Assembly (NCBI GenBank): GCA_948567375.1 | Contig: OX419757.1 | Coordinates: 13,406,974 to 13,470,973, forward strand | Reading direction: 5' to 3' | Origin: Lunularia cruciata | Lineage: Eukaryota > Streptophyta > Marchantiopsida > Lunulariales > Lunulariaceae | DNA: 64,000 bases | In this document: one piece after another, positions 19,215 through 51,485 of the stretch | Layout: each line of letters opens with the position of its first letter | How positions within the stretch are numbered: position 1 is the first letter of the stretch | Notes under the pieces: generated by a model | Seen by the model: the letters and a program-made list of their open reading frames with translations, nothing else | Database searches by the model: none | What the model was told of the DNA's origin: nothing | Made by a program: the position numbers and the translations under genes

Positions 19215-19439
19215 TACACTATAGAAGCACAACTCACACATAAATCATACATGAACTCTAAATTTTAACAATTACCCCCTTAGTTGGTGGTTAGGTCCCT
19301 CTAACTCTAGATAGTCATCTACTCCAAGTATGTGATATGGTCTATGGTGAACCAAGATCAAGAGGCCAGATGCTATTGAGCCCCATCGTTACTTGCCTAT
19401 CTGCAATCTATATTACACAAAGGGTTAACTGATTATAGG

Positions 19440-19590: not shown

Positions 19591-21122
19591 GCACTTACAA
19601 GCACCAAGCTTGGGTCCATAGTGCCAGCAATTTTGGGATGTGGTATGGCGCATAATTGCACACATGATCCTTCCAAACAACACCATCACATCCTTCCAAT
19701 ATGAGGACTCCAAAAGATAAAACCTCATGCAGTCTCAAGATAATGAGGCATGTAGTAACATCAAGAGTTGTTGGTGTATTTTGCTACACATATACATTAT
19801 AACTTGGATGAAATTGACAGATCAAGGATCTATAACCTCCTCCTTGAATAGTAGCATAGCAAAAATATCCCTATGCTAAGCAATTGCTAAGTTCTCAAAG
19901 GCCATCAACATCACTCTCTAAAAGATTTCTGCGCATTGAGAACATGCACTCACCTATACGTCTAGATCATCCAAGTCCAAAATACAAGAGCATCACGACA
20001 AATGGATGCTAAGTAAATCTGGATCTCATCCATAGAGTAAAAGTTAAGGAGAGAAGGATTTTAAGGAGGCTTGTGGGTTTAATCAATAGCACATGGCCAA
20101 CCAATTTATCTAGAGATCCTAATCTCCCAAGTGCTCTCTCTACAAACCATACTTATGCAATCCTCTCTTCACCATCTGAACCACTATCTTTGCTACCTCA
20201 AGGGGATCTCAAGAAATATTACAATGATCAATCAAGGACTTGTCATATAAGGCCTAAAACTCCCCTAGGGACTCTATACCTTGATCAATCAAAACCTAAG
20301 TTGGTGCATCAAAATGTCTAAGAATCCAAGAACCAATAAATTGACCCTTTACTAGACTTGTCAAGAAGTGTCACCGACCCAATCAACTTGGAGAATTGCT
20401 CAACCATAACCAAAACATACCAAAGGATGTATCACAATCAATAGTAAAGGTCACACAAGGTCCAAACTCCAACGGTAACCCAATCCCATGATAGGTAATG
20501 GATGTAAATATGGCATAAGAGCATTAAATGATGCGCTAACTTGGTAACAAACCACACATCTAGCAACAAATTATTGTATATGGGTCCACATACCGTGCCA
20601 CTAATAATGACTCTAGAGTAAATTATATGTCCACTTTACTCCAAAATGTCCTAGCTCCTTATGAGCATGACATGCCAACTATGGTCTCTAAGATGGAAGT
20701 GGTACTACTTGCAAACTACCATCTTCTCATATACAAAGAATTTATCTGCCATCCAATCTAAACCGCTTGCCTCATTGAAGGACAAGATCTTCCTCCTTGG
20801 CACCAACTATACCACCCACAACACTAGTGTAAAGATAATCCATCACTAAGATATCAAATGAATGTCGCATTGACCAATATAACTATCTCCATCCTCTAGA
20901 TCTATGATGTCAATAACCCCTCTTGTATGTTGAGAGATATACCATCAAAGCCTTAGAAAATGAACATAGAAAGGTAGATGTATGCCAACCTAGCACTAGC
21001 TCCTCATCTATTTCACTATGCCGATGTGCTTTGTTCTGATTTGCTAGCTTGGACATGGGTTTCTATTCAACCCAATTGTATCATGGTTCACCATTGATAT
21101 AACCATGAAATCATACTCTTGA

Positions 21123-23003
21123 GGGCTCCTTCAACCTCTCCCCACTCCTACCCAATGTTGGGAACAAGTGAGTATGGATCTCGTCTGTGAATTACCCAAG
21201 ACCATCTCAAGGTTTGACTCCATTGTGGTCTTTGTGGACCGGCTCAGCAAAATGATTCATGTACGCCCTACCACCAAGGAGGTGACCGCTCCACAACTAG
21301 CTCATGATGCAGTCTTTAGATGCAGTCTTTAAAAGCAGTCTTTAAATGCAGTCTTTAGATGCAGTCTTTGCTCACCATGGCTTGTCTAGAGTACTCATCA
21401 CCGATAGAGGCACCCAATTCACCAGCTTGTTTTGGCAAACACTCTTTGGGTTCTTCAAAACCAAGTTGGCCATGTCCACAGCTTACCACCCCCAAACAGA
21501 TGGCCAAACAGAGCAGGCTAATCGCACAATTGAAGATATGTTACGCGGCTTCACTTTAGAAGAGCAAGAGAGGTGGGACACCCTACTCCCGTTGGTGGAA
21601 TTCACTTACAACAATTCAGTGAATACATCTACCCAGGTCACTCCGTTCTTCCTCATGTATGGTGAGCATCCCTTCACACCTTCTAGCTTGATGAAGATCC
21701 GTCCTGTTGCTACCAATGTCGATGTAGTCAACACATTTGTTTCTAGAATCCAACAAGGTGTGAAGAGCGCCAAGCATAGATTACAGATTGCACAAAATCG
21801 ACAAAAGCAGTATGTTGATGCACACCGTCGGCACATGGAGTTCAATGTTGGGGATCAAGTGTGGCTATCAACAACCAACCTCACATTAGTTGGACCTTGT
21901 AAGCTCAAACCTCGTTTTATTGGGCCTTTCTTGATTCTTTGTCGCATTGGCGCTGTGGCCTATCACCTTGAGCTACCATCACACATGAAGATCCATCCAG
22001 TCTTCCATGTCTCCCTACTACGCATATATGCTCCCCGATCAGGCCAAGGTCATTCCACACCAGACATTTGACCTTGTCCGACACTCATTGATGGCATAGA
22101 GGAATATGAAGTGGAGCGGATTCTCCAAAAACGCATGCGCGGTACTCGCCACCCATGGGTGGACTATCTAGTACAATGGAAAGGTTACTCCCTCTATGAA
22201 GCCACCTGGGAGCCCGCTGCCAATTTGGCACATGCACCTGTGTTGGTGCAAGCATTTGAGCAACAATTGCACAACGAGGACGTTGCGTCTTAAAAGGAGG
22301 GAGGTCTGTAATACCAAGAGCTAGCCATATGATCTAGATGTGAAATTTGGTTTTATAACATCTAGAATGATGTTATACATGATGGTCAAAATAGATCAGA
22401 TAGAAGTATCACCAAAAGAGTACTTCTACTAATAGGGCAGAAACCAAAATAGACTTGAGAACCTTAGAACCAATAGCTAGACATATGATTTAAAGGTGAG
22501 AATTGGTTTGGTAACATCTGGAAGGATGTTACAAATGATGGACTAAACAGATCAAAAAGAGGTATCACCAAAAGGGGACTTCTACTAATAGAGTAGGAAC
22601 CAAAATATGCTTGAAATCTTTGAAGGCAATTTCGGAGGCTTAAACGGATGAATTAGGCCTCAAAAATGTATAAATTCCCCCCCCCCCTACAGAGGAAATG
22701 TTGGACTTCCCTCTACCCTGCTTTGTCTCATCAAGAGCTTTCCAACGGTACCTTACTCACGTGATTCTGAGATTCCTACAAGAAGATTCCTTAAAAGATT
22801 CCCTCCGGTCAAAGCTTGTTTGACCAACCAGATAGGACCTAGACCTGACATGTCACATATTTGTGTCCCTAATCCTATGGTGGAGCTTCCTTTGCAGAGA
22901 TCCTCTTTGTCTATATAATAAAGAGAAGGTGCTCCCTTGGGGCATCGATAGTTTGAGTGTGCAATCTGTATTTTCTCTCTTCTCTTGTCCTTGGAGTATT
23001 ACA
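21123..23003 (+). mobile_element. Family-A Ty3/gypsy chromovirus fossil, 3' part
   Basis: It contains an integrase core (about 21180-22070, with the TDRGTQF and YHPQTDGQTEQANR signatures), then a chromodomain (about 22096-22270, EYEVERIL and WKGYSLYEATWEP), a polypurine tract just before 22307, and a 697-bp 3' LTR (22307-23003). Chromodomains guide integration to methylated-histone chromatin in this clade. Gag, protease, reverse transcriptase and the 5' LTR are absent; the left side abuts copy B0. A fragment with few breaks in its coding part, so younger than the B copies. Confidence 0.92.
22307..23003 (+). repeat. Family-A 3' LTR
   Basis: It starts TGTAATACC and ends GTATTACA, so the ends are inverted repeats with TG..CA termini. 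A second, inverted copy at 38478-39214 fixes both boundaries. The first part holds two tandem units of about 160 bp (near 22311 and 22468), both beginning with an AGCTAG..CATATGAT word and ending with CTTCTACTAATAG..GAACC. A TATATAATAAA-type promoter motif lies near 22913. Confidence 0.92.
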
Positions 23004-23643
23004 ATTGTTCATTTTTTATCCATACATCTTTAGGAGGTGGTTCTACACAATACATCACATGTGGAGAGCTCATTGTCCAAATTCAGCTCAATCATTTGAC
23101 TGATAGCTCTATGGTGAGAGCTCAAGCCATTATGATAGTAGTAGAGTCATATGATATGCTAGTTGGTGGAGTAATATTATACCCCATGGGTTTTAGTAGT
23201 GACTATTGAGATGAGATAAATTCCTATAGGCCAGGTTGGCAATCAAGTGAGGGATAGGTATGTTTACCTATTGATGCACTTTAGTAGTGGCAATCTTGGC
23301 TCACTATCATAGTGACCATAACATCAATTTTAATTTTCTATGGGTTTATTACTTGGCCTAGTGACTTATTGGAAGGGAATGCACATGTAGAGGATCCTCC
23401 AATATTGGAGGAGATCATTTGAGTTTGGAGTACAAGTAGGATTATTCCATCCACCTTGGATGTTCCGTTGTGGAGTTCTAAAGAGGCATTGTAGCATTAT
23501 GTGGATCAATTGGTGCAACAAGTATGGAGTGGAGCCTTTGTACCTTCAAAAGACCAATATGAGGATGAGCATCCAATTATATTACTTTGTCACCTTTGGA
23601 TATCACACTCATTGCTTGGTAATATCTAGTAGAGAGATTATAT

Positions 23644-24470
23644 CTATTAGAGTTGTTTGGTGGGATTAGTATTAAACTAGTTATTATACTACAAGTAGAT
23701 ATATAGATTTAGATCTACTTGTATGTAGATAGAGATGAGATTGCTAGACAAATCTATCTATATCCTATGGCACTCTTGGCCTATTGGTATCTTGAGTTAA
23801 AAATCAAGGGTTACCAGAAGACACTATTGATAGACATTTCTTTGCTAGATGCACAAGATTTGGAGAGAGATGGTCTCATTCATTTAGTGATTTTTGGATG
23901 GCTATGTTAGGGATACACCCATGGTGGCCAAGGTCAAGATCTATAGGATCTCCATTTTGGTGTGTTTTAGGAGATGTTATATATACTAGAACATGTCTAA
24001 ATTCATCAATGTGTTTCTCATGCCTACATTTTGGAGAATGTCCCTTTGATTGGTGATTCTTGTACACAAGTGATGGCGAGTGCACATCAAGTCCATTCTT
24101 TGATGGGACTTGTTGTGTTGTTAGATGAAGCTATAGTGGGATAATGGGTTCATCTTCTTTGACTTTGGTGGATGAACTTCTTACCTAGAGAGGCTCTACA
24201 TCATGCTTATGATGGGATTCAACAACTAGACCACTTTACTATTGATGATATTTTGGATGTTGGGCATTGGTCTTAGATGGTGTTAATGGTTGATATGTCA
24301 CCTATGGCAGTGGTGAACATTGTTGGATAGCCCAAAGCCGCTTTATCCATAGTTATGAGTTTCCCAAGCTCCCATGCTTTCTAAGAGGGAGGTCTTGAAC
24401 TTGATTGGGACTCACAATGATAACAATTGGTGCAACCCAACTCCAATGAGAGGGAATGAGTGATGGTTTT
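23644..24470 (+). pseudogene. C5-cytosine DNA methyltransferase-like domain, copy B1
   Basis: Ordered motifs of the C5 DNA methyltransferase family are visible: motif I (cofactor site) LLELFGGIS at 23644-23670, then the VDRDEIARQ segment near 23730, a motif IV-like stretch beginning LVIFGW at 23884, motif VI AYILENVP at 24022-24045, and a C-terminal PN..ERE region near 24440. Such enzymes transfer methyl groups from S-adenosylmethionine to cytosine in DNA. The region lies between protease-like and reverse transcriptase segments in the same orientation as both, so it is part of the retroelement and not a neighbouring host gene. Fossil; broken. Confidence 0.75.
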
Positions 24471-24726
24471 TTGCACTAGCATTATTGCTATTATAGTAAT
24501 GTCAAATGCATCCAATCATTAAGTGTTAGGTTGTGCTATGGACATGAATATTTTGACTTGGATTGTGAGCCTTGGCTTGGCAAAGAAGTGTAGGGTGCAG
24601 TTGATAGGCATCACAACTCGGAAAATTGTGAGCTCTGTGCTTATCAAGATAATTCAAGCACATGTTGGAGGCAATGGACAGAGTGGGCATGGTATTCTTT
24701 GAACTCAACCTATGGCTAATAGTGAG

Positions 24727-24816
24727 AGTGGTCTACTTGAGGTCCATCCAAGTGAGCGTGGTCTACTTGAGGTCCATCCAAGTAAGCGTGGTCTACTTGA
24801 ATTACATCCTTGGTCT
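24727..24816 (+). repeat. 30-bp tandem repeat in the B1 linker (3 units)
   Basis: Three units of 30 bp, the last diverged, encoding a repeated ten-residue word (GLLEVHPSER type) just before a WSTWD segment. The equivalent linker of copy B2 (about 41406-41470) has two units. The repeat lies between the methyltransferase-like and reverse transcriptase regions. Confidence 0.85.
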
Positions 24817-27707
24817 ACTTGGGATACAATTAGAGGATGTATAGAGCTTGCAACCATAACAAAGGGAGTTTTTTGCATTGATTTTAGGGACTTCAATGTT
24901 TAGAGGTATGAAATTATTGCTCCCAAGGGCCTGGTGTAGTAGCAAGTTAGTATGTCTTCCACTCCTACATGAGTTATAAAGGATATTTTGGAGCCAAACA
25001 TTAGTTCCAAGCTTACAAGAGGGAAAAGGCAAAGAATTTGTAGATTCTTGAGCAGCTATACTAGATGTTTACCTTTAGTATGAAGGATTTGGGTGCTCAA
25101 AAAGAATCTAGTATTTGGATTGAGCTGACTAGTGATACACCAATTTTTAATGTCCCTATAGATATAGTGATTATGAATCAGTGCTCTCTCTCTCTCTCTG
25201 ATTCATAATCAAAGTAGAGACCTTTTTGGGGTTGGTTTGGTGAAGATTTCACATGGAGAGTTTGCTTTAGCTATAGTGATGCCAAGCAAGAAGGATATTC
25301 ATGGAAACTACACAAATAGGCAAATGTATGGAGATTACCATCTTATCAATTGATAGACTAGGGTTAATTGGTATGCTATGCCTACAAAAGTCAAGAATTT
25401 TTATGCGATTTGGCATGTAAAGGTTTTAAGTACTTTGGATCTTTGAGCAAGATATCATCAGTTGTAAATCAAGTAAGAAGACAAGTCCAAAATAAGATTT
25501 GAGGTTATTGATTCTCATGATAAGGATATATTATATAAATGGAGGTTCTTACTATTTGGATTAAAAAACATTCTGGTTGAGTACCAAGGGTCATGGACAT
25601 GAACTTAGCAAGATTGAATTTTTCTTAAGGTCATATTGATGAAATTTTGGTCTATGGCACAATTGAAGAGGAACATGAGAGATATTTATAGGAAGTGTCC
25701 ATATAAATAAATAGTGCCATTGTCAAGGCCTTGGAAATGGCTCACCGATATGCTAGGGATTTAGTGTCATTGCCAAGGCCTTGAGGAAGCTGACCATGCT
25801 TACACAAGAGCGGTGTTGGAGAGATGAGTGAGAGAGCTTTTATAGCCCTCAAGAGACAGATTAGAGGACAACCATTCCAAGTTCATATTGATTGGAGTAT
25901 GTTGGAGTTTGGAACAAGATAATGAGGGAAGGAGCTTGTGGTGGCCTATGGCTAGTTGCTTTAACAATTTAGTGGAGGCAAAGAAAGTTAATATGAGAGA
26001 GAGTACTTGGTAATAGTGTGAATAGTAGCACATTTTCAATGTTATCTATTTTGTAATCTTTTCACACTCATCACTTATCATCAACCATTGAAGGCTTGTT
26101 GGACTTTAAGGGAAGCTTGCATGATGGGCTCTGATTTTACAAGAATATGATTTCATGATTATTCACAAACTTGGAATGGTGAACCATGATGTAGATGGGT
26201 TGAGTAAAAACCCATATCCCAATTAGCATGATCAGACCGGAGCTCATTTGCATGGTGAGATAAATGAGGAGATGGTGTAAAGTTGACATACATCTACCTT
26301 TTTATGTTTATTTTTTGAGGCCTTGATATCATCTCTCTCAACACATATAGGAAGAGTTGTTGAGGTCACAAATTCATAGGGTAGAGATATTATTATACTT
26401 CAATGAGATATTCATGATGATGTCTTAATGATAGATTATCTTTCCATTGGTGTTGTGGGTGATGCAGCTGGTGCCAAGGAGAGAGACCATGTCCTTCAAT
26501 GAGCCAAGTGGTTTAGATTGGAGTGCAAACACCTTCTTCATGTATGGGAAGATGATAGAGTGACAATTGTACCAGTTCCATCTTAGAGACCATAGTTGGT
26601 ACATCATGCTCATGAGGAGCTAGGACATTTTGGAACAAAATAGACATATAGCTTACTCTAGAGTTATTATTGATGGTGTAGTATGTAGACTATTGTATAG
26701 TAGTTTGTTGCCATATGTGTGGTTTGTGACCAAGTTAGAGCATCATTTAATGCTCCTATGCAATAGTTACACTCATTACCTATCATGGGATTGGGTTACC
26801 ATTGGAGTTTGGACTTTGTTGGACCTTTATCATTGACTATGAGATATAATTTGTGTGTTTTGACTATGAGATATAATTGGTGTGTTTTGGTGGATCACTT
26901 CTCCAAGTGGATTGAGTTGTTGGTACTTCTTGACAAGTCTAGTGAAGGGACAACATACTCATTCTTAGATCAAGTTTTTAGTCATTTTGGTGCACAAATT
27001 GAGGTTTTGATTAATCAAAGTATAGATTTCTTGGTGGATTTTTAGGTCTTATGTGACAAGGCTTTGATTGATCATCATATTACCTCTCGATATCACCCTA
27101 AGATAGATGGCTTAGGAGAGAGAGTGCCTCAAATAGTGAAGAGAGGATTGCATAAGTATAGTTTACAAAGAGGACACTTGGGAGATTGGGATCTCCAATT
27201 ACCTTGGCTGACCATGGGTTATTGGTTCATCCAGCAAGCCTCCTTAGTATCCTTCTTTCCTTAATTTCTACTCTATGGATGAGATCCAAATTTACCTTCA
27301 GCCATTCATTATGATGTTATTGTAGTTTTGGACTTGGATGATTCAACCATATGGGTTAGTGCATGTTCTCAACAAGTATAGATCTTTTAGAGAGTGATAT
27401 CAATGACTTTGAGAACTCAGCAATTGCTCATCATAGGGATACCTTATGCTATGTTACTAGTTGAGGAGGAGGTTATAGACCCTTGATCTATTGATTTCAT
27501 CTAAGTGACTATGTATATCTATAATAGTTTGCACCCACAACACTTGATGTTACTGTAGGCCGCACTACTTTGAAATTGCATGAGGTTTTGCCTTCTGGAG
27601 TTCTCATGTTGGAAAGATATGACGGTGTTATTTGGAGGGATTATGTGTGTAATTGTATACCATGCCACCTTCCAAAAATTGATAGCACTATGGACCCAGG
27701 CTTGCGG

Positions 27708-27848
27708 TGTATGTTATGTGGCTCTTCTAGTGGAGTTGCTAGTATGTTGGTGTGTGATGGCTATTTGAGATGATGAAATATGTTGTGTCTGACCCCTCCT
27801 CTCATGGTGGTTCCTCAAGGACAGTGGTTAGATCCTAGATGTACTTGA
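27708..27848 (+). pseudogene. PHD-finger-like segment, copy B1
   Basis: It begins LRCMLCGSSSG, has MLVCDG and later a PP..VPQGQW segment typical of the second half of a PHD finger (the VPxGxW word precedes the last cysteine pair in the family). It follows an integrase-tail segment ending in CHLPKIDSTMDPG. Homologous to 50520-50654. Fossil; broken. Confidence 0.65.
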
Positions 27849-28130
27849 CTTATAACTAGTTCACCTTTTATGTGATATAGATTGCAAATAGGCGACTAAC
27901 GATTGAGCTTGATAGCACATGTTCTCCTAATCTAGGCCCACCATAGGGCATATCATATACTTGGAGTAGATGACTATCTAGAGTTAGAGAAGCCTAACTG
28001 CCAACTAGGAGATGATTATGGCATCTTAGAGTTCATATATGACTTATGTGTGAGTTGTGCTTCTATAGTGTATGATGTTGATATCAATGTATATTATGTA
28101 GTGATGTATATATGCATAACATGTAAGGTA

Positions 28131-37149: not shown

Positions 37150-37594
37150 TCTCATGCCATTTGTAGTGATGCATCTAGATTGCTTGAACACTGGAGTTGT
37201 AGGGATAGTAGTTAGAGGTATTTTAGCAATCACTCAAAGACTACTTTCCAACGGTCAGATTTTGTGTTTGGGGTACTGACTTTATCATGAGGCCCACCAT
37301 CACTTTGCACCGTTTGCACCATTGGGTGTGCCGTCAATGGGACCGTTAAGGTTTCAGACCTAGCTCAAGTTTGGGGGTATACTTTCAAAGTGCAGCTCCA
37401 GAGAGCTCACTTCTTTGATGTTGAGCCTTCAAGTTCCTGGTTATGGTGGATAGAGGCCGGTAGTTGGATTCTCTTAGTTAGAGTTGGTGTGGCTTGATTG
37501 TAATTAGTGCCCAAATGTTGGCAGTTTATAGAGTGACAGATCAAGTATCGATCTGAGTTGAGTTGATTTGAGTGGTGTAAAAAATTTGATTACA
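37150..37594 (+). repeat. 5' LTR remnant of copy B2
   Basis: About 440 bp matching the LTR downstream at 50940-51350, including AGAGGTATTTTAGCAATCACTC and TTTGCACCATTGGGTGTGCC. It ends GATTACA at 37594, pairing with the TGTGAT start of the 3' LTR. The first ~110 bp of the LTR are absent on this side. Confidence 0.75.
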
Positions 37595-38477
37595 TCATAG
37601 AAGTGAGGTCAAGGGGAAATCGGGGTGCAAGAATCGAGAGTGTTGGTGGTATCACCAAGACTCGCTGATCATGGTATCTTGATTGGAGTTCAAGTTTTCC
37701 CTAGTGTGCAGAAGCTTATTTGGTTGATACAAATTTAGTAGTGAGGTAGACGGTGTGCAGAAGCACTGGCCAAATTTTGAGAAAAGAGAGGCAATTTTCA
37801 AGCAGTGGTTGTGATTTTGAGCTCAAGAGGTGAAAGCAAGACCAATTTTTGTGAGTTGGGCTCAAAAAGTGAAATTGAAGGTGGAATTGGGAACCTATCC
37901 TTGTGAATTTGTGATTTAGAAAACTCACTATTTCAGTTTGGCCCAAGTGGAGAGTTAGCGGAGGATTTTGCAGTTAGCCAACTTTAGGGTTTATGTCAGA
38001 TTTTTGTTGAAGTTTACGTCAAATTTTAGCCAGATTTGGAGGAGTGTTGAAGTAAGTGCAGTACCTGCCCTTACTTTTGATACATCCATGGCTATTTGCA
38101 TTGAGCAATTGGAGCAAAGATTGGCTAGCATGGCCATAGCTTAGAGGAAATTAGACTCGGGTATTGAGGCTTCTACCTCATATGTTGGTGATAGAGATGC
38201 CTTGGATTTCATGTGCGGAGCAACACAGGTACCTCTACCACAGTGACTAGGAGTGCAGAACGTGCTCTAGAGCCTAGAGGAGCATCAATGGAGTTGGACC
38301 CAAAGAGAGGAGAGGTTGGGAGACAAGTCAGATGTCCCTAGTCTTTCATGCTCTCTAAGGCATTGCAGATGATTTCCATGGCTCCTAGACGTCCCAATGC
38401 AAGTGTGGTAGGTGGTGATGGGGTGCATGATAGACTACCTGCTAGTCAGTCATTTGCTACTACACAAACTGAGTCTA

Positions 38478-39214
38478 TGTAATACTCCAAGGACAAGAGA
38501 AGAGAGAAAACAAAAATTGCATACTCAAACATTCGATGCCCCAAGGGAGCACCTTCTCTTTATGATATAGACAAAGAGGATCTCCTCCAAGGAAGCTCCA
38601 CCATAGGATTAGGGACACAGATAGGTGACATTTCAGCAAGCTCCACCCTTGGATTACTTACTTGGATGGGTGACATGTCTGGTCTAGGTCCTATCTGGTT
38701 GGTCAAACAAGCTTTGACCGGAGGGAATCTTTTAGGGAATCTTTCTATAGGAATCTTAGAATCATATGAGTAAGGTACCGTTGGAAAGCTCTCGACGAGA
38801 CAAAGCAGGGGGGAAGGAAGGCCAGCCTTTCCTCTGTTGGGGGCATCTGTACTTTTTCAAGGCCCAATTTTATCCGTTTAGGCTTCCAAAATTGCCTTCA
38901 AAGATTTCAGGCATATTTCGGTTCCTACTCTATTAGTAGAAGTCCCCTTTTGGTGATACCTCTTTTTGATTTGTTTAGTCCATCATGTGTAACATCCTTC
39001 CAGATATTACCAAACCAATTCTCACCTTTAAATCATATGTCTAGCTATTGGTTCTAAGGTTCTCAAGTCTATTTCGGTTTCTGCCCTATTAGTAGAAGTA
39101 CTCTTTTGGTGATACTTCTATCTGATCTATTTCAAACATCATGTCAAACATCATTCTAGATGTTACCAAACCAAATTTCACATCTAGATCATATGGCTAG
39201 CTCTTGGTATTACA
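38478..39214 (-). repeat. Solo LTR of family A, inverted, with 5-bp target duplication
   Basis: A 737-bp sequence starting TGTAATACTCC and ending GGTATTACA, the reverse complement of the family-A LTR at 22307-23003. It is flanked on both sides by GTCTA (38473-38477 and 39215-39219), a perfect 5-bp target site duplication. Solo LTRs arise by recombination between the two LTRs of one element. It sits inside copy B2, so it inserted after B2. Confidence 0.95.
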
Positions 39215-40312
39215 GTCTAGCACAATGTTGGAGATAGCTCAACTGATTATGGATTGCCCTTTAATTTCAACCAATGATATATTTACATTGGAAGTTGATC
39301 CAGCCCCAGTGTTCCGGTTGGTTGCCACACTTTGTGAGAGTAGGGATGATGTGGTTCATGCTTCTAGAGTAGAGGTGGTTGATAGTGGAACTGACTTGGT
39401 TGAGGAGCATGGGATCCGCTCAATGAATAGTGGTTTATGGCAGGTAGCAATGGCTAGACTGGAAGTGTTACCAACTAGACCGGCCTTTGAGCAAGCACTT
39501 TTTACTTGGAGTTGTATTGTTGGATAACCAAAGGAGGATTTTTTTTTGGTGGGACCTTCAAGGAAGGTCTATACCACAAAGGGTCTTACTTGACTTTTGT
39601 GTGCAGCCCTTTATGATGGAGAAGACTGCAATTATTGGTCTGGAATTACGGAAGACCAATGTGGAGAGGTGTCCATTTTAGATCCAAACATCTCTATGTG
39701 GTGGTTTGATATAGTACATTGCACGTGGAGAGCTTGTTCTCCAAGTTTAGCCTGGTCACCCGATTGATAGCTTGGTGGTGAGAGCTCAGGCTATTGTGAC
39801 AATAGCTGAGTCATATGACGTGCTAGTTGGGGGAGTAGTGTTATACCCAATGAGTTTCAAAATTGACTATTGGGAGGAGATAGCCTCCTATAGACCTGGT
39901 TGGCAGTCAAGTGAGTGATGAGTATGTTGCCTACCAATATGCTTCAGTAGTGGCAATCTTGGTTCACTATAGTTTGGGATCGTGGCAGCATCAATTTCAA
40001 TTTTTAGTGGTGCAATTACTTGGCTTGGTGATTTATTGGAGGAGAACGCCCATGTAGAGGATACTCCAATACCATAGGAGATCATTTGGATTTTGGAGTA
40101 TGAGTGAGATTGTTCCATCCACCTTGGATGTTCCATTGTGGAGTTTGGAAGAGGCATTACAACAACATGCAAATTAGTTGGTGCAACAAACTTGGAGTGG
40201 AGCCTTTGTACCACCAAGAGATGAGTGTGAGGATGAGCTTCCACAGTTAATAACCTTGACACCTCTGGATACCACACTCATTGCTTGGCACTATCCAATA
40301 GAGTGAATAAGT

Positions 40313-41149
40313 CTATTGGAGTTGTTTGGTGGAATTAGCACCGGACTAGCTACGGTCCTACAAGCGGGTATACAAGTATAGAGGTACTTGTTTGTGGAGA
40401 GAGATGAGATTGCTAGGCAAGACTCTCTACATCATGTGGCACACTTGGCTTATCAGTATCTTGAGTTATTATCAATATAAGCAGTCAGGAGTTACCAAAG
40501 GGCCCTACTAACAAACATTTCTTTGTTGGGGGTGCATGATCTTGAGAGACATGAGCATGTTCATTAGGTGATTTTTGGATAGCTATGTTAGAGACATACA
40601 CATGCTGGCCAAGGTTTAGGTCTTGATACCCGTTCTGGTGTGTTTTGGGAGATGTTACGCATACTTTGACATCTCTAGGTCCATCAGTCCATTTCTCCAG
40701 CTTACCTTTTAAGGAATGTTCCTTTGATGGGTGATTCTCGCACTAGGGTGGTGGCAAGTACACATCAAGTCCATTCTTAGATGGGACCTGCTATTATTTT
40801 AGATGCAACCAAAGTGGGATCACAGGCTCATCATCTTCATCTTTGGTGGACAAACCTCTTACCTAGAGAGGTTCTACAACGCGCTTATGACGGGATTCAA
40901 TGACTAGACCACATCATTGTTGATGCCATCTTGGATGATGAGCGTCAATCTCAGATGGTCATAGTGGCTGATAGGTCATTGATGGTAGTGGTGAACATAT
41001 TTGGATAGACTAGAGTTCTTTTTCCCACACTTATGAGTTTCCCAAGCTCTCATACTTTTTGAGAGAGAGGTCTTGGTTTGGTTTGGAACTCATAGTTACA
41101 GCAATTGGTGGAGCCCAACTACAATGAGAGAGAGTGGGTGATGGGTTTT
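40313..41149 (+). pseudogene. C5-cytosine DNA methyltransferase-like domain, copy B2
   Basis: Motif I is excellent: LLELFGGISTGLATVL from 40313, the S-adenosylmethionine site, followed by a FVERDEIARQ segment near 40395 that matches the acidic motif II region. Downstream, a GQG-containing motif IV region lies near 40610, a motif VI-like VPLMGDSRT region near 40715, and QLVEPNYNEREWVMGF at 41102-41149, resembling the RExxRLMGF region near the C-terminus of these enzymes. All lie in order in the protease-to-reverse-transcriptase interval of a Ty3/gypsy element. The same layout is found in copy B1. In function it would methylate cytosine in DNA; this copy is a fossil with several breaks. Confidence 0.8.
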
Positions 41150-41869
41150 TGCATTGGTATTATGGCTATTCCAGTAGTATTAAAGGCATCCAAGCATTAG
41201 GCGTTAGGTCAAGCTATGGACCTGAACTATTTGACTTGGATTGTGAGCCTTGGCTTGGCAGAGCAATGTAGGATGTGCTTGATAGGCATCACCACTTGGA
41301 CACTTGTGAGCCTTGTGCCCATTGAGACAATTCAAGCACAGGCTAGGGGCGATGGACCGAGTGGGCAGGGTATTCTTGGGACACAACCAATAGCTACTAG
41401 GAAGAGTGGTCTACTTGGAGTCCATCCAAGTGAGTGTGGTCTACTTGGATTACACCCTTGGTCTACTTGGGATACAGCTAGAGGACGTATGGAGCTTGCA
41501 GCCAAATTAGAGGGATTTTTTCACACTAAGGTTGAGAACTCTAGTAGTTGGAAGCATGACACTACTGCTCCCAAGGGTCTAGTGTAGCAACCAATCAGTA
41601 TGTCTTCCACTCCTACAATAGTTACAGAGGATACTTAGGAGTCAGATCTTGGACCCAAGCTTATAAGAGAGGAAAGACGGAGGGTTTGGAGGTTCTTGAG
41701 GAGCTACATGAGTTGTTTTGCCTTCAGTATGAAGGATTTGGGAGTTCTAATAGGACTTGGTACTTGAATTGAGCTGACTAGCAATACACCAATTTTTTGA
41801 TGTCCTTATTGATATAGTGATATGGAGAGGACATTGATTTAGAGTTGGAGTAGAGACCTTTTTGAGGCT

Positions 41870-43080
41870 GGTTTGGTGGAGATTGCACATGGAGAGTATG
41901 CATCAGCTACAATGATGCCAGCCAAGAACAATATGCATGGCAACTACACAAATAGGTGGATGTGTGGAGATTACCGTCCTATCAACCGACAGACTAGGGT
42001 TGATCAGTATGCCATCCCTACACCGGAAAAGATCTTTGATTTGATTGGGCATGCAAAGGTCTTTAGTACTTTGGATCTTGAGTAAGATATCATCAGTTGC
42101 AAATCAAGGAGGATGATAAGTCCAAAATAACATTTTGAGCCATTGATCCTCATGGCAAGGATGTGTTATATTAGTGGAGGTTCTTACCATTTGGGTTAAA
42201 AAATGCTCTTGTTGAGTTCTAGAGTGTCATGGATAGGATTTTAGCTAGATTGGATTTTGCTTGGTGCTATATTGATGACATTTTGGTCTATAGCACTACG
42301 GTGGAGGAGCATGAGAGAATTATTGGAGATGTTTGAGAGGTTGAGATCTAATGGAGTCAAATTACATTCTCGGAAGTGTAGGTTCTTCCATGAGCAAGTT
42401 GAGTATTTGGGTCACACTATCTACCTTGGAGGACTTGGTGTTTAGCAGACCAAGGTGGAAGTTATTGCATGTATTCCTTGGCGCTATAGATGTGAGCAGA
42501 GTGCGAGCATTCCTTGGGTTAGTAAACTTCTATCGCTGATATATTAGAGGATTTAGTGCCGTAGCCAAGGCCTTGACAAAGCTGACCAAGCTTACATAGG
42601 AATGGTGTTGGGGAGATGAGCAAGAGAGAGCTTTTGTAGAGCTCAAGGAGAGGTTGACATATGCTCCTATTTTGAGGAGCCCGATCAAAGGACAACCACT
42701 TCAAATTCACACTGATTGGAGTATGTTGGAGCTTGGAGCAGTGCTTACCCAACATGATGATGAGGAGAAGGAGTTTGTGATGGCCTATGCTAGTAGCTCC
42801 AACAATTCAGTGGAAGCAACATATAGTTCATACGAAGGAGAGTGCTTGGCAGCAGTTTGGGCAGTAGCACATTTTTTATGTTACCTATTTGGTAACCCCT
42901 TCACTCTCATTGTTGATCATCAACCATTGAAGTAGTTGATGGCATCATACAAGCTTTTAGGGAAGCTTGCATGAGGGGCTCTGATTTTACAAGAGTATGA
43001 TTTCATGGTTATTCATAGACCTGGAATGGTGAACCATGATGTAGATGGGTTGAATAGAAACCCATGTCCTAGCCAATAGG
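41870..43080 (+). pseudogene. Reverse transcriptase and RNase H region of copy B2
   Basis: A Ty3/gypsy reverse transcriptase is recognisable from CGDYRPINRQTRVDQYAIP, KVFSTLDLE, a YIDDILVYS-type catalytic word near 42275, and EQVEYLGHTIYLGG near 42405. RNase H follows with LQIHTDWSMLELGAVLTQHD (about 42700), YSSYEGECLAAVWAVAHF and VDHQPLK. The enzyme copies element RNA into DNA and removes the RNA strand. Fossil; broken. Confidence 0.9.
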
Positions 43081-43495
43081 ATCAGATTAGAGCATGTTTG
43101 CATGGTGAGACAAATGAGGAGATGGTGCCAAGTTGACATGCATCTGCCTTTCTCTATATATTTTTTGAGACTTTGGTGATATCTCTCTCAGTACATACAG
43201 GAGGAGTTATTGAGGTCACAAATCCAAAGAGTGAAGATATTAATACAATTCAACAAGACATTCATGATGATGTCTTAGTGATAGATTATCTTTGCATTGG
43301 TGTTGTGGGTGACATAGTTGGGGCCAAGGAGAGAGACCGTGTTCTTTAGCAAGCTAGACGGTTTAGATTGGAGAGTAGACACCTTTGTGTGTATGGGAGG
43401 ATGGTAGAGTATGAGTAGTATCACTTCCATCTCAAAGACCACAATTGGTTTTTCATGCTCACAAGGAGCTAGGACATTTTGGAGTAAAGTGTACC

Positions 43496-43907
43496 TGTAA
43501 CAATATGGAGTTTAGCAACAAAGTTAGTAAGGCTAATGAAGTAGCAAATAAGACAAATTAGTCTAGAATATTCTAGAAGTATCTAGAAAGCTTCTTGGGA
43601 AGCTTTCTTGCTAGCTTAACTTGCACCTCAAGTAAGTAGCTTCTAGAAGGTTCTAACTAGCTTAGCTTACATGCCAAGTAAGTGACTTCTAGAAGAAAGC
43701 TTCTTGAGAAGCTTCCCAATTAACTTAGCTTGCACTCCAAGAAAGCGGCTCAAGGAAGCTTCTTGAGAAGCTTCTCAAGAGCCTTGTATGATCCCTATAA
43801 ATACAAGAGCCAAAGCTCATGCTAGGCATTTGGAGTTTTCCCTCATTCAAATGTCCAAATGTGAGCTTCCATTCTCCTCTTTCTCTCCTTGGTCACAATC
43901 TTTTATA
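43496..43907 (+). repeat. Solo LTR of family C, plus orientation, with target duplication
   Basis: It begins TGTAACAATATGGAGTTTAG and ends near CTTTTATA. GTACC flanks it at 43491-43495 and 43908-43912, a perfect 5-bp target site duplication. It is roughly 85% similar by eye to the reverse complement of 49053-49465. It contains TATAAATAC near 43796 and GAA/TTC heat-shock-like modules upstream. Only 9 bp separate it from the inverted LTR of the full family-C element. Confidence 0.9.
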
Positions 43908-43916
43908 GTACCTATA

Positions 43917-44268
43917 TGTAAAAGACCAAAATCGAGGAGAGAAATAGGATATTTATAGGTAGCATACAAGACTCTTGAAGCTTCTCAAGAAGCTTCCTTG
44001 ACCCGCTTTCTTGGAGTGCAAGCCAAGTTAACAAGGAAGCTTCTCAAGAAGCTTTCTTCTAGAAGCCGTCTACTTGGCGTGCAAGCTAAGCTAGTTAGAA
44101 GCTTCTAGAAGCTTCCTTCTAGAAGCTACCTGCTTAGGGCGCAAGTTAACTAGTTGGGAAGCTTCCCAAGAAGCTTCTTAGATGCTTCTAGAATATTCTA
44201 GGCTATTTTGTCTTATTCTCTACTTTGTAAGCTCGACTAACTTTGTCTCTAAACTCCATATTGTTACA
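43917..44268 (-). repeat. 3' LTR of family C
   Basis: It starts TGTAAAAGACC on the + strand and ends TGTTACA. It is about 60-75 bp shorter than the 5' LTR because of a single length difference near the left end. I count about 11 substitutions in roughly 310 aligned bases. Confidence 0.93.
44098..44115. promoter_or_regulatory. Heat-shock-element-like array in family-C LTR
   Basis: GAAgcTTCtaGAAgcTTC: four alternating GAA and TTC modules at exact 5-bp phase, the consensus bound by heat-shock factors. Further GAAGCTTC and TTCTAGAA modules fill the rest of the LTR (for example around 43985, 44040 and 44065), and the same clusters occur in the 5' LTR and the solo LTR. They lie upstream of TATAAATA in transcription order. 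Confidence 0.6.
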
Positions 44269-47200
44269 TATTCCTTTGCCGCTAGTTGGTGACATCCTCG
44301 TCGCCAGTAAAGCTTCGAAGTCCTTGATGGCCATCTGTGCATTCAGGAGGTGAGAAAGAGGTTCCCATGTGGCATCATGAAGAGGATACCCTTTCCAAAG
44401 GACCTTGTACTCCGTATGTTGGCAACGGCCTTGTTGAATATGGCGACGCGCAAGGATACGATCAACTTTCTACTCCTCATGATCATTGATAGGGATAGGA
44501 AGAGGGGGAGGTTGGACTCGAGAGGAAAAGGAAGAAGGGTTAGGAACAAAGGGTTTTAACTTGGAAACATGAAAGACAAGATGGATACGCATGTGACAAG
44601 GCAAGGCAAGTCGATAAGCAACAAGAGAGACATTGTGGGTGATATCAAAGGGTCCTATCCAATTAGGGGCAAGTTTACAAACTTGGGTATCAAGTGGGAG
44701 AGGGAGGTTACTAGAGGATAGCATGACTTTATCACCAACTTCAAAGGTGAGATCACGACGATAATGGTCCGCATATTGTTTTTGGCGATTCTGAGCAACA
44801 AGGAGGTGAGATTTGGCTTGTTGGAGAGATTGGGATATAGTGGTCAAGAATGTAGAAGTATGAGGAACCTGAGAGGGAGGGGGAGCAAGAAGAGAATCTG
44901 GAACAAGCGGATCTTGGCCAAAATTGAGAAAGAATGGAGAAAATTCGGTGCTTGCTTGTTTGGAATTGTTGTAGGTAAATTTTGCAGCTGCAAGACATTC
45001 ATCCCAGTTGGTATGGTGGACATTGACAAAGGCCCGCAACATATCCTCCAATGTACGATTGGCGCATTTGGTTTGTCCATCAGTTTGAGGATGATAGGTT
45101 GTGGATAAAGCAAGCTTGGTGCCGAGTATTTGGAAGAGTGCTTGCCAAAACTTCCCGGTAAATCGAGGATCTTGGTTGGAGATGAGTACACATGGCATCC
45201 CATGATGCTTGAAGACATTGTCGAAGTAGATTTGCGCTAAGGTTGGAGCATTCATGCTATCACAGGTTGTGCTAAGTGGATTTGCTTACTAAGCTTATCC
45301 ACAAATACCACAATTGCGGTGTGTCCTTGTTTTGTCTTTGGCAAGGATGTGATGAGATCCAAGCTCACATGCTCCCAACGAGCGGATGGAATGGCGAGTG
45401 GTTGAAGGAGTCCACTCGGCTTCTGGTTGCTGGCCTTGTTCCGTTGGCAACTTTCACATGATCAAACAAAGTCTCGAACATCTCGTGTCATGTTAGGCCA
45501 CCACCATTGGCGTTGGAGGGTGCCCAAGGTCTTGTCCACTCCCATGTGACCAACTATTGGTAAATCATGGGCTTCTTGAAGGCGCACAAGTCGAAGATCA
45601 CCTTTGGCTGGAACATAGATCTGGTCTGCATGGAATAAAAGGCCTTCCTTGAAAGAGAAGGTGTTGTACTCCTTGTCGCGTGCTGTTAGACGACCGTGTA
45701 CCATTTGGAAGAAGGGATCTTGTTGTAGAGCTGATTGAAACTCATTATGGACCTTAGGGTCAATGGACATTGTTGTAATTGCCGCCGTGATGAGAGGAAG
45801 ATCCTTCAAATCAGGTCGTCGTGATAGAGCATCGAGGATGACATGGAACCAACCTGGTTTGTACTCAAGTTTGATGTCAAACAATTGGAGTTGCTCTTCC
45901 CATCGATGATGTCAACTCTTCATGTGCTCCAAGTGTAAGGTCTGCAACAATGGTTTGTGATCAGTTTGCATGATCACTTATTTCCCCAAGAGATAATGCC
46001 TCCATACCTTGGTGGCATATACCATTGCAAGTTGTTCCCGATCTTGAGCAAAGTAATTTCTTTCAGCTGTATTTAGTCGGCGAGACACAAAGGCAATAGG
46101 ATGTAGTCCATCGAGAAATTCTTGTTGCAACACAGCTCCAATTGCAAAGTTAGAAGCATCAAAATCAACCACACAAGGTAGTTGAGGATCATATGGTTGA
46201 AGGATAGGTCTTGAAGACACCATATGCTTTAACTTCTGGAATGCTTCTTCATGCTTGGTGGTCCACTGGAAGCTCGAGTTCTTTCCCAAGAGGTCAGTCA
46301 ATGGTGCAGCCACGTGAGCATAATAGTGGATGAATGGTCGGTAAAAACTGGCCAATCCATTGAATGCTCATACTTTTGTAGCATCCTTTGGGGTAGGCCA
46401 ATCAGTAATGGCCTTGATCTTCTCTTCTTCCATCTTGATCTCCTCTAATGAGATCTTATGACCCAAGAAGGTAACCTCCTTCTGCCAAAAAGCACACTTT
46501 GACTTCTTGCAGTAAAATTTCCACTGTCGTAGTTGTCTTAGGACTTCTTGCACATGATTCTTGTGTTCTGCCTCTGTCCTATTATAGATTAAGATATCAT
46601 CTAAGAACACTACCACGGACTGATCCAATAGTCTTTCCAACACACGATGCATCTGATCCATGAAGACTGCTAGAGCATTAGTGAGTCCAAATGGTAGAAC
46701 TCTCTACTCAAAATGTCCATACCTTGTGCGAAAGGCAGTCTTTTGCACGACCTCTCCTTCAATAAGAATTTGCCAATAGCCACTACAAAGATCTAGCTTG
46801 GAAAAGTAGCATGCTCCACTTAATTGGTCAAGCAGGTCATCGATCCGAGGCAAGGGATATGCATTCTTCACGGTTTGCTTATTAAGCCCACAGTAATCAA
46901 TACAGAAACAAAGTCCTCCATCCTTCTTTGGAACAAATAGTACCGGTGCTCCCCACGGAGAGGTACTATGTCGTATGAAATCCTTCTCCAACAACTCTAT
47001 AAGTGTTGTTCGCAACTCCTTTGGTGAGAGCCAATAGATTGGTCTACTCACTGCAGTACTCCCTGGCAATAACTCAATCTTGAAGTGCATACCTCGATCA
47101 GAGGGTAATCCCTTTGGCAGATCATCCGGAAACACATCTGTAAACTCCTAAACTATCCGATCAACCGTTGCTTGATGCGGCACCTGGCCCTCCTCAGATT

Positions 47201-49036
47201 GTTCTTGTGCAATCGGCTTGATCCACACCGCAAATACATACTTATCTTCCTCCAAAGCTTGCTTTATGGCTACTTCATTAACAAACTTCTCTTCTAGGGA
47301 CTCATCTCTCTTCCAAGCTTGCTCCATGGTTGCTTTCTTGGCAAACTTCCCATCTTGGGACTCATCTCCTTTCCAGATTTGCTCTATGGCTACCTTCTCA
47401 ACAAACTTCCCATCTTGGGACTGACTATTCTTAGGTGTCTTACTCAGAGGTGCCAGACAACCTAATCGGAAATTCTTACCTTGGTGTTGTACTTGAATTT
47501 GACGTTGGGTCCAATCGAATTGAACCTTATGACGTTCAAGCCAAGGTAGACCCAGAATGATATCATAGTAGAGGTGCCACTACAAACCTCATACACTCCA
47601 AATACTCCTTCCCAATCTTGAAGGTAACAAGATGCGAGGTGCAGAATGCAAAACCTTTTCTACCATCCGCCATCATCAAACTACTTCCAATCACTGGCTT
47701 GATAGGAATACCCAATTCCTTTGCTACTTGCATAGATATGCAATTCTCTAAACTTCTAGAATCAACCAAAATCCTACAACCCCTATTAGATATCATATCT
47801 TGCAAGTGAAGCAGACTTGCATAGGTCAAGCCTTCAATCCCATTGGAACTAATCAAGCTCCCTGTAGGTGGCTCAAAATCTCATATTGGGATTCTTCATT
47901 TCCCTGATCATTTTTTTCCACAAACTCCATCTGGGCAACTTGTCGAGGTCGCCCATTCCTAAGTGGACATTCAGCAATGCGATGTCCAACTTGGCAACAA
48001 TAAAAGCAACCTCCATTTTGTCATAATCTTTCTCTATCTACTGTGCCAAGTGGTCTTCATTGGATAGCATCAATCTCCATTGGTACCGGTTCTTCCACTC
48101 GTGGTAATGGTAGGTTTTGTGTAGGTCGAGGTCAAGACCAAGTTGTTACAACTAAGGAATCAAAACGCTCAGCCAATTGCATGGCTTCTTCAACGTTTTG
48201 TGGCTCTCGCATGGTCACCTCCAATCTGGTTCTTGACTTCAATCCTCACACAATTGATCCAGAACTTCACCTTCTTGGATATTTGGAATTTGCATGATGA
48301 TATTCTGAAATTGTGTGATGTAGCTTCTCACTGAGCCAATCTGCCTCAACTCTGCCAATTTATCTTGTGCAGCTCGGGTGGCATTTATAGTCTAAAATCG
48401 ACCAAGTATTGCATCCTTGAATTCTGCCCATGTCAAAATTGGTGTAACAATTTGTTGTTCAGCTCTTTCTACTCGGAATTGCCACCAAAGTTTTGCCACG
48501 CCATCCAATTGGCTAGAAGCCAAGAGAATTTGTTTCCGCTCGTCTTGAAGATTGGTGGCTTCAAAGTAACGTTCACAGTCAAACACAAAATTCTCCACTA
48601 TGCTTGGAAGATTCTTGCCTTCAAACACCTTGGGTTTCGGAAATTGAATGCGATCTTCTCCATCTCAAATTGGCACTCTGTCTATCTATTCTCGTTGTTG
48701 CTGGTCTCGTTCATCCAACAATCAAGTAAGATGCTCGATTTGTTGTTGCATTGCAAGGATAACATCCGGTATTGCCACCATCGCTACTACTCTATTCCAC
48801 TACCCTCAATTTATCTAGTTGATTAACACATAGATACAACACGTCCACCGTTCTCCATAAGTTACAACTGGAAGTATCAAGGGTTCCTCTGACACGGTGA
48901 TCATATGTAGAAAATCCTGCCCAAAGCGTGAGGTGATGAATTGTGTGAAACAATGCTTTGGTAATATCTGGACATGAAAGTCCCAATGGTTTGGCGGAAG
49001 TGGATTTGGTGGTCCATAAATTCCATCCATCCCATT

Positions 49037-49052
49037 CCTGCTCTGATACCAA
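49037..49052 (-). other. Primer binding site of family C
   Basis: Read on the minus strand this is TTGGTATCAGAGCAGG, directly inside the 5' LTR. TGGTATCAGAGC is the standard plant LTR-retroelement site complementary to the 3' end of initiator methionine tRNA, which primes minus-strand DNA synthesis. Confidence 0.93.
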
Positions 49053-49465
49053 TGTAAAAGACCAAAACCAAGGAGAGAAATAGGAGAATGGAAACTCACA
49101 TTGGGACACTTGAATGAGGGAAAACTCCGAATGCCTTGCATGAGCTTTGGCCTTGGTATTTATAGGTAGCATACAAGACTCTTGAAGCTTCTCAAGAAGC
49201 TTCCTTGACCCACTTTCTTGGAGTGCAAGCCAAGTTAACTAGGAAGCTTCTCAAGAAGCTTTCTTCTAGAAGCCGCCTACTTGGCGTGCAAGCTAAGCTA
49301 GTTAGAAGCTTCTTTCTAGAAGCTACCTGCTTAGGGCATAAGTTAACTGGTTGGGAAGCTTCCCAAGAAGCTTCTTAGATGCTCCTAGAATATTCTAGGC
49401 TATTTTTTCTTATTCTCTACTTTGTAAGCCCGACTAACTTCATCTCTAAACTCCATATTGTTACA
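49053..49465 (-). repeat. 5' LTR of family C
   Basis: 413 bp; in element orientation TGTAACAATATGG to GTCTTTTACA. It contains a TATAAATACC promoter word (minus strand, near 49160) preceded by many GAAGCTTC palindromes. Confidence 0.95.
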
Positions 49466-49469
49466 TATA

Positions 49470-50310
49470 GCTTACTCTAGAGTCATTGATGGTGCAGTAT
49501 GCAGACCGAGGTACAACAATTTGTTGCTAGATGTGTGGTTTGAGACCAAATTAGAGCATCGTTCAATGCTCCTACGCCATAGTTACACCCATTACCTATT
49601 ATGAGATTGGGTTACCATTTGGACTTCATTTGACATTTACCATTGACTATGAGACATCATTTGTATGTTTTGGTGATGGTGGAGCACTTCTACAAGTGGA
49701 TTGAGTTGGTGGCACTTCTTCACAAGTCCAATGAAAGGACGGCTTATTCATTCCTGGATCAGGTTCTTAGTCATTTTGGTGCACTAGTTGAGGTTTTTAG
49801 TGATCAGGGTATAAAGTTCTTGGGGGAGTTGTAGGTCTTATGTGACAAGGCTTTGATTGATCATTGTACTACCTCTCGAGATCACCCTAAGGTAGATAGC
49901 TTAGCAAAGAGAGTGGTTTAGATGGTGAAGAGAGGATTGCAAAAGTATGGTTTGTAGAGAGGCCATTCGAGAGATCAGGATCTCTAGTTACCTTGGTTGG
50001 CCATGGGCTATCGGTTCAACCGGCAAGCCTTCTTAGCATCCTTCTCTCCTTACTTTCTACTCTATGGATGAGATCCAGATTTACCTATAGCCATTCATAA
50101 ATATGCTATTGTAGTTTTGGACATAGATGATCCAGATGTATAGATGAGCACATGTTCTTAATGGGCATAGATATTTTGGAGAGTGATGTTGATGGCCTTC
50201 AAGAACTTGGCAATTGCTTAGCATACACATACCTTACACTATGCAACTATTCACAAGAGGAGGTTATAGACCCTCAATCCATCAATTTCATCCAAGGGAC
50301 CATGTATATC
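49470..50310 (+). pseudogene. Integrase core of copy B2
   Basis: It contains words of the Ty3/gypsy integrase core: VEHFYKWIELVALLHKS, YSFLDQVLSHFGA and EVFSDQGIKFLGEL (the SDQG word holds the second catalytic Asp), then DKALIDH and VKRGLQKY. It continues the element after the family-C insertion. The enzyme would join element DNA into the host genome. Fossil; broken. Confidence 0.85.
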
Positions 50311-50519
50311 TATAGTAGATAGCACCAATGACACTTGATGTTTCTACATGCCACATTATCTTGAGAATGTGTGAGGTTTTGCCATTTGGAGTCCTTGTGT
50401 TGGAAGGACATGATGGAGTTGTTTGGAAGGATCATGTGCACAATTGTGCACCATGCCACCTCCCAAATATTGATGGTACTATGGATCCTAGCTTGGCACT
50501 TGTACGTGCAGGCTTGAGA

Positions 50520-50654
50520 TGTATGTTATGTCGCTCTTCAGGTGGAGCTACTACTATGTTAGTGTGTGATAGTTGTTTGAGAGGATGGCATATGGTATGT
50601 ATGACTCCTCCCTACATGGTGGTTCCTTAGAGATAGTGGTTATGTCCTAGATGT
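50520..50654 (+). pseudogene. PHD-finger-like segment, copy B2
   Basis: The cysteine and histidine layout of a C4HC3 PHD finger is visible: Cys pair CMLC at 50520-50531, eleven residues, Cys pair CDSC at 50565-50576, His at 50589, HMVC ending 50600, and a last CPRC pair at 50643-50654. MLVCDSCLRGWH and PP..VP match the PHD consensus closely. It follows the integrase-tail segment ending HLPNIDGTMDPSLA and precedes the LTR. PHD fingers usually read histone H3 tails, so it could have steered integration or the methyltransferase. Fossil. Confidence 0.8.
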
Positions 50655-50829
50655 ACTTGACCTATAGCTAGTTCATCCTTTATATGGTATAGATTGCAAA
50701 CAGGTGACTAAAAATAGGGCTTGATAGCACCCAGCCTCTTGATCTTTGCCCATCATAGGGTATACCATATACTTGGAGTAGATGGCTATCTAGAGTTAGA
50801 GGGAACTAACCACCAACTAGGGAGTCAAT

Positions 50830-51366
50830 TGTGATACTTTAGAGTCTATGTACGACTTATGTGTGAGTTATGTGTTTATAGTGTATGATGTTGACAACAA
50901 TGTATGTTGTGTAACAATGTATATACACACAATAGCTATCATGCCATTTGTTATGTCGCATCTAGATTGCTCAAACATTAGAGTTGTAGTGATCGTAGTT
51001 AGAGGTATTTTAGCAATCACTCATATACTATTGTCAAATTTTGTGTTTGGGGTATTGACTTCATGGTGGGGCCTACCATCACTTTGCACCATTTGCACCA
51101 TTGGGTGTGCCGGCAGTGGGACCGTTAGGGTTTCAAACCTACCTCACATCCAAGGGTATACTTTCAAAGTGCAGCTCTAGAGAACTCACTTCTCTGATGT
51201 TGAGCCTTCGAGTTCCTGGCTATGGTGGATAGAGGCTAGTGAGTGTCACCTGGATTCTTTTAGCTAGAGTGTGTATGGCTTGACTGTAATCAGTGCCTAA
51301 ATGTTGGCAATTTATAGAGTGACATATCAAGTATTGATCTAAGTTGAGTTGATTCAAGTGGTAAAT
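50830..51366 (+). repeat. 3' LTR of copy B2
   Basis: It starts TGTGATACTTTAGAGT after a purine-rich tract (CTAGGGAG) and matches the 5' remnant at 37150-37594 over its last ~430 bp. Immediately after it, GTGGCAATTTAGAGTC begins a second copy of the first ~115 bp of the LTR (about 51367-51485). Confidence 0.7.
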
Positions 51367-51485
51367 GAACTAATTATTGTGGCAATTTAGAGTCTATGTA
51401 TGACTTATGTGTGAGTTATGTGTCTATAGTGTATGATGTTGACAGCAATGTATGTTGTATAGCGATGTATATACGCACAACAAGA

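Follow-up and report, generated by a model that had tools for sequence, protein, structure and literature searches.

Retroelements that carry a cytosine-5 (C5) DNA methyltransferase have been described from charophyte algae and dinoflagellates (de Mendoza et al., 2018; PMC5890265), and the sections of that paper considered here bear out the statement of an earlier note on the present DNA that both host groups were already known. The legend of figure 4 of the same paper gives the elements of Klebsormidium nitens repeats as in DIRS elements and domains typical of Gypsy elements, and a part of a later paper (PMC12344493) cites this work for DNMT3 members that sit in retrotransposons (Copia and DIRS are named) of streptophytes and dinoflagellates. 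For liverworts, a Marchantia methylome paper, in the part considered, counts five methyltransferases in three classes, and Ty3/Gypsy bursts have been reported in Lunularia cruciata, with a genome given as 580 Mb, in a paper whose main text does not contain the word methyltransferase (Linde et al., 2023; PMC9985172). Here we describe a stretch of 64,000 nucleotides of the L. cruciata genome (assembly GCA_948567375.1, contig OX419757.1, positions 13,406,974 to 13,470,973; hereafter the window), in which two decayed copies, A and B, of a Gypsy-type retrotransposon family contain a C5 methyltransferase domain. A methylase-bearing retroelement is of a kind already known from algae (dinoflagellates, Klebsormidium). 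Its spread among bryophytes, its copy number, a readthrough-type stop, a PHD finger, target duplications, a second domain order and a hint in the repeat order that a DDE integrase may cut a circular intermediate seem to be undescribed in the open-licence literature searched.

The methyltransferase domain and its family in Lunularia

A single plus-strand frame in copy B holds all of the motifs quoted in the earlier note, in the order claimed there, namely LLELFGGISTGL, VERDEIARQ, the motif IV stretch, VPLMGDS and PNYNEREWVMGF, with the motif IV stretch interrupted by stops (FG*LC*RHTHAGQG). When the enzyme from an intact genomic copy outside the window served as the tblastn query, all of its 336 residues aligned to this frame, at 40286-41290, with 74% identity (E 2.5e-154); the Marchantia enzyme P0004 and a further relative, P0014, matched it at E 4.9e-109 and 9e-70, respectively. 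A family profile of five rows, none of them from the Lunularia genome, was run on the six frames of the window up to E 10 and gave two matches only, one of 330 bits at 40304-41269 and one of 244 bits at 23641-24588. As had been proposed, the domain lies between the protease region (39499-40086) and the reverse transcriptase (41588-42478) of one element. DNMT3 is the best match by profile and by predicted fold, the motifs stand in canonical order, and the enzyme is very probably of the DNMT3 class. Both window copies are pseudogenes: the methylase of copy B is full length and has lost one codon, its frame being otherwise kept through 14 in-frame stops, and that of copy A contains 16 stops.

The possibility that the motifs arose by chance, or belong to a host gene inserted in copy B only, is scarcely credible. 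It would draw on the fact that the decayed window copy is without a Pfam match: copy B with X at its stops matched 0 families in a Pfam DNA_methylase search, and nine open stretches from the two window copies gave no match either. The profile check suggested for 39700-41600 was accordingly negative with Pfam but positive with the family profile, and the Pfam miss is attributable to decay, because intact genome copies exceed the curated cut-off of PF00145 (31.2 bits against a cut-off of 22). Both forms of this explanation are refuted by the match to the Marchantia enzyme, by the score of a profile free of Lunularia rows and by 40 near-identical full-length copies elsewhere in the genome.

These copies were brought out by the genome-wide search for family members that the earlier note had proposed, and copies with open frames are present in the genome. 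In the genome (566 Mb), 123 matches to PF00145 were scored of 2161 first-look candidates and 30 loci were examined: L001 is a host gene with DNMT3A as its best match, L002 and L015 are DRM-like genes as judged by eye, and 25 of the 28 loci from L003 to L030 hold 93% or more of the retroelement methylase. A DNA search found at least 40 copies, a lower bound in that the scored matches are the best of 4667 first-look candidates; every one of the 40 spans the full length, with identities of 98-100%, and they are distributed over eight contigs of 60-85 Mb. In nine young copies, the terminal repeats A1 and A2 differ by only 0.2-3.0% (97.0-99.8% identical). Of 20 stretches sampled at round coordinates, 4 contain nucleotide matches to the family (down to 69% identity), which cover 5093 of the 50000 bases in the sample; the family constitutes about a tenth of the genome, with a wide error, and has been amplified recently and widely.

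Architecture, repeats and decay of the element

It is virtually certain that the family is a Gypsy-type retrotransposon with a full-length C5 methyltransferase in its first open reading frame (ORF). ORF1, an open natural frame of 1428 amino acids, contains two CCHC knuckles, a DSG protease motif (present in the intact copy) and then the methylase; ORF2 (966 amino acids, L033), read from a different copy, joins reverse transcriptase, RNase H, H2C2, rve and a PHD finger in one frame. An in-frame TAG separates the two in 31 of 31 readable sites (36 sources were surveyed, five of which fell below the score threshold), and in 29 of these it is directly followed by CAR-YYA, a combination that we take to be a readthrough context of the tobacco mosaic virus type. 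Since the TAG lies between the methylase and ORF2, the stop leaves the methylase on the side of Gag. Fingers similar to the PHD finger of ORF2 are those of CHD4, DPF2/3, PHF21A and UHRF1, several of which read the unmodified tail of histone H3. We have good confidence that copy B is a decayed member of this family, with an ORF1-borne DNMT3-class enzyme, the conserved TAG and an ORF2 ending in a PHD finger; its parts (Table 1) were mapped piecewise against an intact copy and by tblastn with the P0001 and P0002 proteins.

Table 1. Parts of the methylase-bearing element and other family members in the window
Positions	Strand	Feature	Remarks
37150..51482	+	Decayed Gypsy-type element, copy B, end to end	gag mostly lost; interrupted by two nested insertions
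37150..37571	+	5' repeat A1	No B part after it
37572..38045	+	Leader	Next 2.3 kb of element (most of gag) missing
38055..38477	+	Start of linker behind zinc knuckles	tblastn, P0001 residues 496-637
38478..39213	.	Nested insertion	Related to 22306-23003, in opposite orientation
39214..40285	+	Rest of linker and protease region	P0001 residues 636-995
40286..41290	+	C5 methyltransferase domain, predicted DNMT3 class	14 in-frame stops
41585..41587	+	TAG, then CAA CCA	Conserved family stop between ORF1 and ORF2
41588..43494	+	Reverse transcriptase, RNase H, integrase start	Decayed
43495..49461	.	Nested insertion	Holds ordinary Gypsy element on minus strand
49462..50657	+	Rest of integrase and PHD finger region	Decayed; P0002 residues 637-1037
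50828..50930	+	Repeat B1	
50937..51352	+	Repeat A2	
51376..51482	+	Repeat B2	Right end
22982..28116	+	Copy A, same family, 5' truncated	Methylase 23617-24612; B repeat 28015-28116
18825..21121	-	Further family fragment	Integrase, PHD region, repeats; no methylase found

The 5' part of copy B covers element positions 3-902 and then 3203-3628, and its A1 and A2 repeats are 86.3% identical (13.7% difference). The nested insertions at 22306-23003 and 38478-39213 are of one type, up to 95% identical and oppositely oriented, and an insertion of this type sits beside or inside both methylase copies. No methylase was found in the ordinary Gypsy element nested in copy B (44470-47856, minus strand), nor beside an older Gypsy relative at 29566-32345 (minus strand), which matches ORF2 piecewise at 28-41% protein identity and may be either a truncated copy or a sister line that lacks the methylase. 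Elsewhere in the window, a tandem pair of 137-nt units, 96% alike, occupies 33830-34106.

The nine young copies, from which all four repeats were fetched, read A(about 450)-coding-B(107)-A-B, as does copy B of the window. The element is thus not bounded by two equal long terminal repeats: its 5' end is A alone and its 3' end is B-A-B, with TG at A1 and CA at B2. Exact 4-bp target duplications, judged by eye, flank 9 of the 10 copies with both ends readable among 14 inspected; the remaining copy (L045/L046) also has an odd B2. The flanks of window copy B, AGAC on the left and AGAG on the right, are alike at three of four bases. At L042, extra B-A-B units extend beyond the right end, as in a tandem array. 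No tyrosine recombinase was found in the ORFs scanned, which contain H2C2 and rve instead. After A1, all six copies shown have CATCAGAG, which resembles, over about seven bases, a primer-binding site for the initiator tRNA, and in each of five copies AGGGGGG immediately precedes B1. The primer-like site and the G tract would set the ends of the complementary DNA (cDNA) at B and A, giving B-A-coding-B-A, which could close to a circle; if the DDE integrase then cut this circle at the internal B|A joint (CA-GC-TG), A-coding-B-A-B would be inserted with 4-bp duplications. A cut at B|A would connect the cDNA form with the inserted form, and the repeat order suggests such a cut, a hint that likewise seems to be undescribed in the open-licence literature searched.

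Counted against the intact copy, copy B has C-to-T changes at 23 of 68 CG sites (34%), 39 of 116 CHG sites (34%) and 31 of 327 CHH sites (9%), with T-to-C changes at 26 of 494 sites; the corresponding values for copy A are 35/66, 52/117, 47/326 and 34/487. C-to-T change at CG and CHG is a known mark of plant cytosine methylation, and 10 of the 14 stops in copy B and 11 of the 16 in copy A need only changes of this kind. The window copies have decayed largely through C-to-T change at CG and CHG sites. This decay is no proof of self-methylation, because exons of host DNMT3 and DRM-like genes (the latter by eye) are present in the genome and the copies are probably methylated anyway by host enzymes.

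Relatives, origin and proposed role

One of the protein searches listed 120 of 203 matches, and candidates were capped in this and another, so that the relatives named are a minimum. The named relatives among the matches listed are Marchantia polymorpha (72%), M. paleacea, Riccia sorocarpa, Calypogeia fissa, Sphagnum fallax, S. troendelagicum, Closterium (four strains) and Haematococcus lacustris; among the minority of listed matches that carry an organism name, there is no vascular plant. The earlier proposal that a Gypsy-type element carries a C5 methyltransferase in a land plant, and that this is not an ordinary host gene in one copy only, is supported by these bryophyte relatives as well as by the genome copies. 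A survey of 98 proteins of at least 800 amino acids, two of them from the Lunularia genome, revealed two domain orders among those in which both methylase and reverse transcriptase were seen. The order methylase-reverse transcriptase occurs in 25 proteins (Marchantia, Sphagnum, Closterium and P0052), and the reverse order in 36, of which 33 continue to the integrase and Haematococcus is the sole named member; in the latter, including P0209, the methylase stands behind reverse transcriptase and RNase H. The PHD finger is found in 28 of these 36, but the 25 database proteins of the former class, only seven of which reach the integrase, show none, and its presence in other bryophytes or Closterium is for that reason not established.

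In the methylase tree, 28 retroelement enzymes form one clade (support 100/100) that stands apart from the DNMT3 genes on a long stem, as judged with four reference rows, two of which are long branches. The earlier note left open whether the charophyte lineage had persisted into land plants or the methylase had been gained again. Because of this single clade, the methylase-reverse transcriptase order common to bryophyte and Closterium members, and A-coding-B-A-B repeats equal to those stated for Klebsormidium, one old lineage that persisted from algae appears to be favoured, and the tie to Klebsormidium is one of architecture, because no Klebsormidium protein is named among the matches listed. 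This absence, together with the second class of differing domain order, would suit a separate gain of the methylase by bryophyte elements, which the same clade, order and repeats render rather improbable. Transfer between hosts may be an alternative to descent of one lineage. The reverse transcriptase tree, with one outgroup and with deep forks unresolved, speaks neither for nor against a single gain. Sphagnum elements (P0070, P0088 and P0024) group among those of thalloid liverworts and outside Calypogeia (forks 92/93 and 95/93), a placement that weakly suggests a possible transfer between bryophytes.

A bacterial or phage origin was also considered and rejected. The PHROG match (phrog_116, 2.5e-16, host row) is weaker than the DNMT3 match of the profile in PDB, a comparison across different methods and libraries that serves as a hint only. 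None of 32 stretches fitting the pattern in viral contigs is a relative, and among 292 pattern matches in prokaryote genomes there is one, on a 9.3-kb contig of a cyanobacterial metagenome-assembled genome (MAG). Two bacterial MAG contigs bear the methylase, L061 and P0056 (the latter from a MAG of Obscuribacterales), and the methylase on such contigs is likely to be plant or algal contamination of public MAGs.

The predicted enzyme is probably active in young copies. The catalytic Cys is kept in 171 of 176 rows, the Glu in 196 of 207 and the Arg in 182 of 203; of seven ORF1 parts, the methylase is best conserved relative to Marchantia (72%), with gag close at 69%; and the pooled ratio of nonsynonymous to synonymous change (dN/dS), which ignores tree and CpG, is 0.42 for six copies and 0.40 for 29. 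Together these values point to apparent constraint on the methylase within the element. Several observations, in addition to the likely activity of host enzymes on the copies, weigh on the other side. The dN/dS values blend the selection that acted while lineages were live with subsequent decay and with effects of CpG; the methylase is free of stops in only 6 of 29 aligned copies, one of which spans 94% and another 98% of it; the motif IV Pro is replaced by Glu in 76 of 176 rows (33 of 34 from Closterium, the one from Haematococcus, none of 20 from bryophytes and 42 of 121 others); and the Klebsormidium enzyme gave no methylation in yeast, a result that its authors term inconclusive in the part of the paper considered here (PMC5890265). 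The yeast result and the place of the methylase on the Gag side of the stop would also fit a non-catalytic domain kept as a nucleic-acid-binding part of Gag, for packaging or as a chaperone; the retention of catalytic residues and a conservation above that of gag itself make this quite improbable.

As to what an active enzyme would do, its main role may be to methylate the cDNA of the element, a proposal to which we give slightly less than even chances. The methylase would be made together with Gag in every round of translation, would be packaged, and would methylate the cDNA before or during insertion, and the PHD finger would read a histone tail and guide the integrase. Alternatively, the enzyme may mark the new insertion for silencing, as a form of self-restraint and not as a shield of the cDNA. 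The excess of copy B decay at CG and CHG over CHH, as in methylated plant repeats, would agree with this, but host enzymes account for the methylation equally well and the family has amplified recently and widely, so that self-restraint seems unlikely in comparison with methylation of the cDNA. It is tempting to combine the latter with the repeat order in a tentative and rather speculative model, in which DIRS-like copying is joined to DDE insertion from a circle cut at B|A, a Gag-level DNMT3 methylates the cDNA or circle, the PHD finger steers insertion, and a lineage older than land plants contributed to a doubling of the genome in the liverwort that hosts it.

Although cytosine methylation serves plants as a means of silencing transposons, the successful plant transposon described here brings along a methyltransferase of the de novo type. 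The relatives in Marchantia polymorpha, a laboratory plant, are labelled only as hypothetical protein in their source, and through them the question of why a transposon should methylate can be put to a direct test in a land plant. Transposon copies can also enter tallies of PF00145 or DNMT3 members in bryophyte genomes.

Comparison with known systems

The recent amplification of the Lunularia methylase family agrees with the Ty3/Gypsy bursts reported for this species in the part of PMC9985172 considered, and the genome sizes (580 Mb in that paper, 566 Mb here) are alike. With the host DNMT3 and DRM enzymes of plants, the retroelement enzyme has a DNMT3-class catalytic domain in common, whereas the host DNMT3 of the Lunularia genome is split into separate open pieces and the retroelement enzymes form their own long-stem clade. 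DIRS-like elements resemble the Lunularia element in their split direct repeats but not in their tyrosine recombinase and duplication-free insertion. Similarly, SymbioDIRS-Dnmt3 of dinoflagellates, as presented in the sections of PMC5890265 considered, has a Dnmt3 enzyme in its polyprotein and A-coding-B-A-B repeats, and uses a tyrosine recombinase where the Lunularia element has a DDE integrase and target duplications. The nearest counterpart described in those sections is KnitGypsy-Dnmt3 of K. nitens, compared here by architecture. Its host is a charophyte and not a land plant; its methylase lies in the Pol polyprotein ORF, whereas that of the Lunularia element lies in ORF1 before the conserved TAG; and the 4-bp target duplications and the PHD finger that ends ORF2 (a term absent from the main text of PMC5890265) set the Lunularia element apart. 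By contrast, both have the Gypsy domain set, a Dnmt3-type enzyme with canonical motif order and A-coding-B-A-B repeats.
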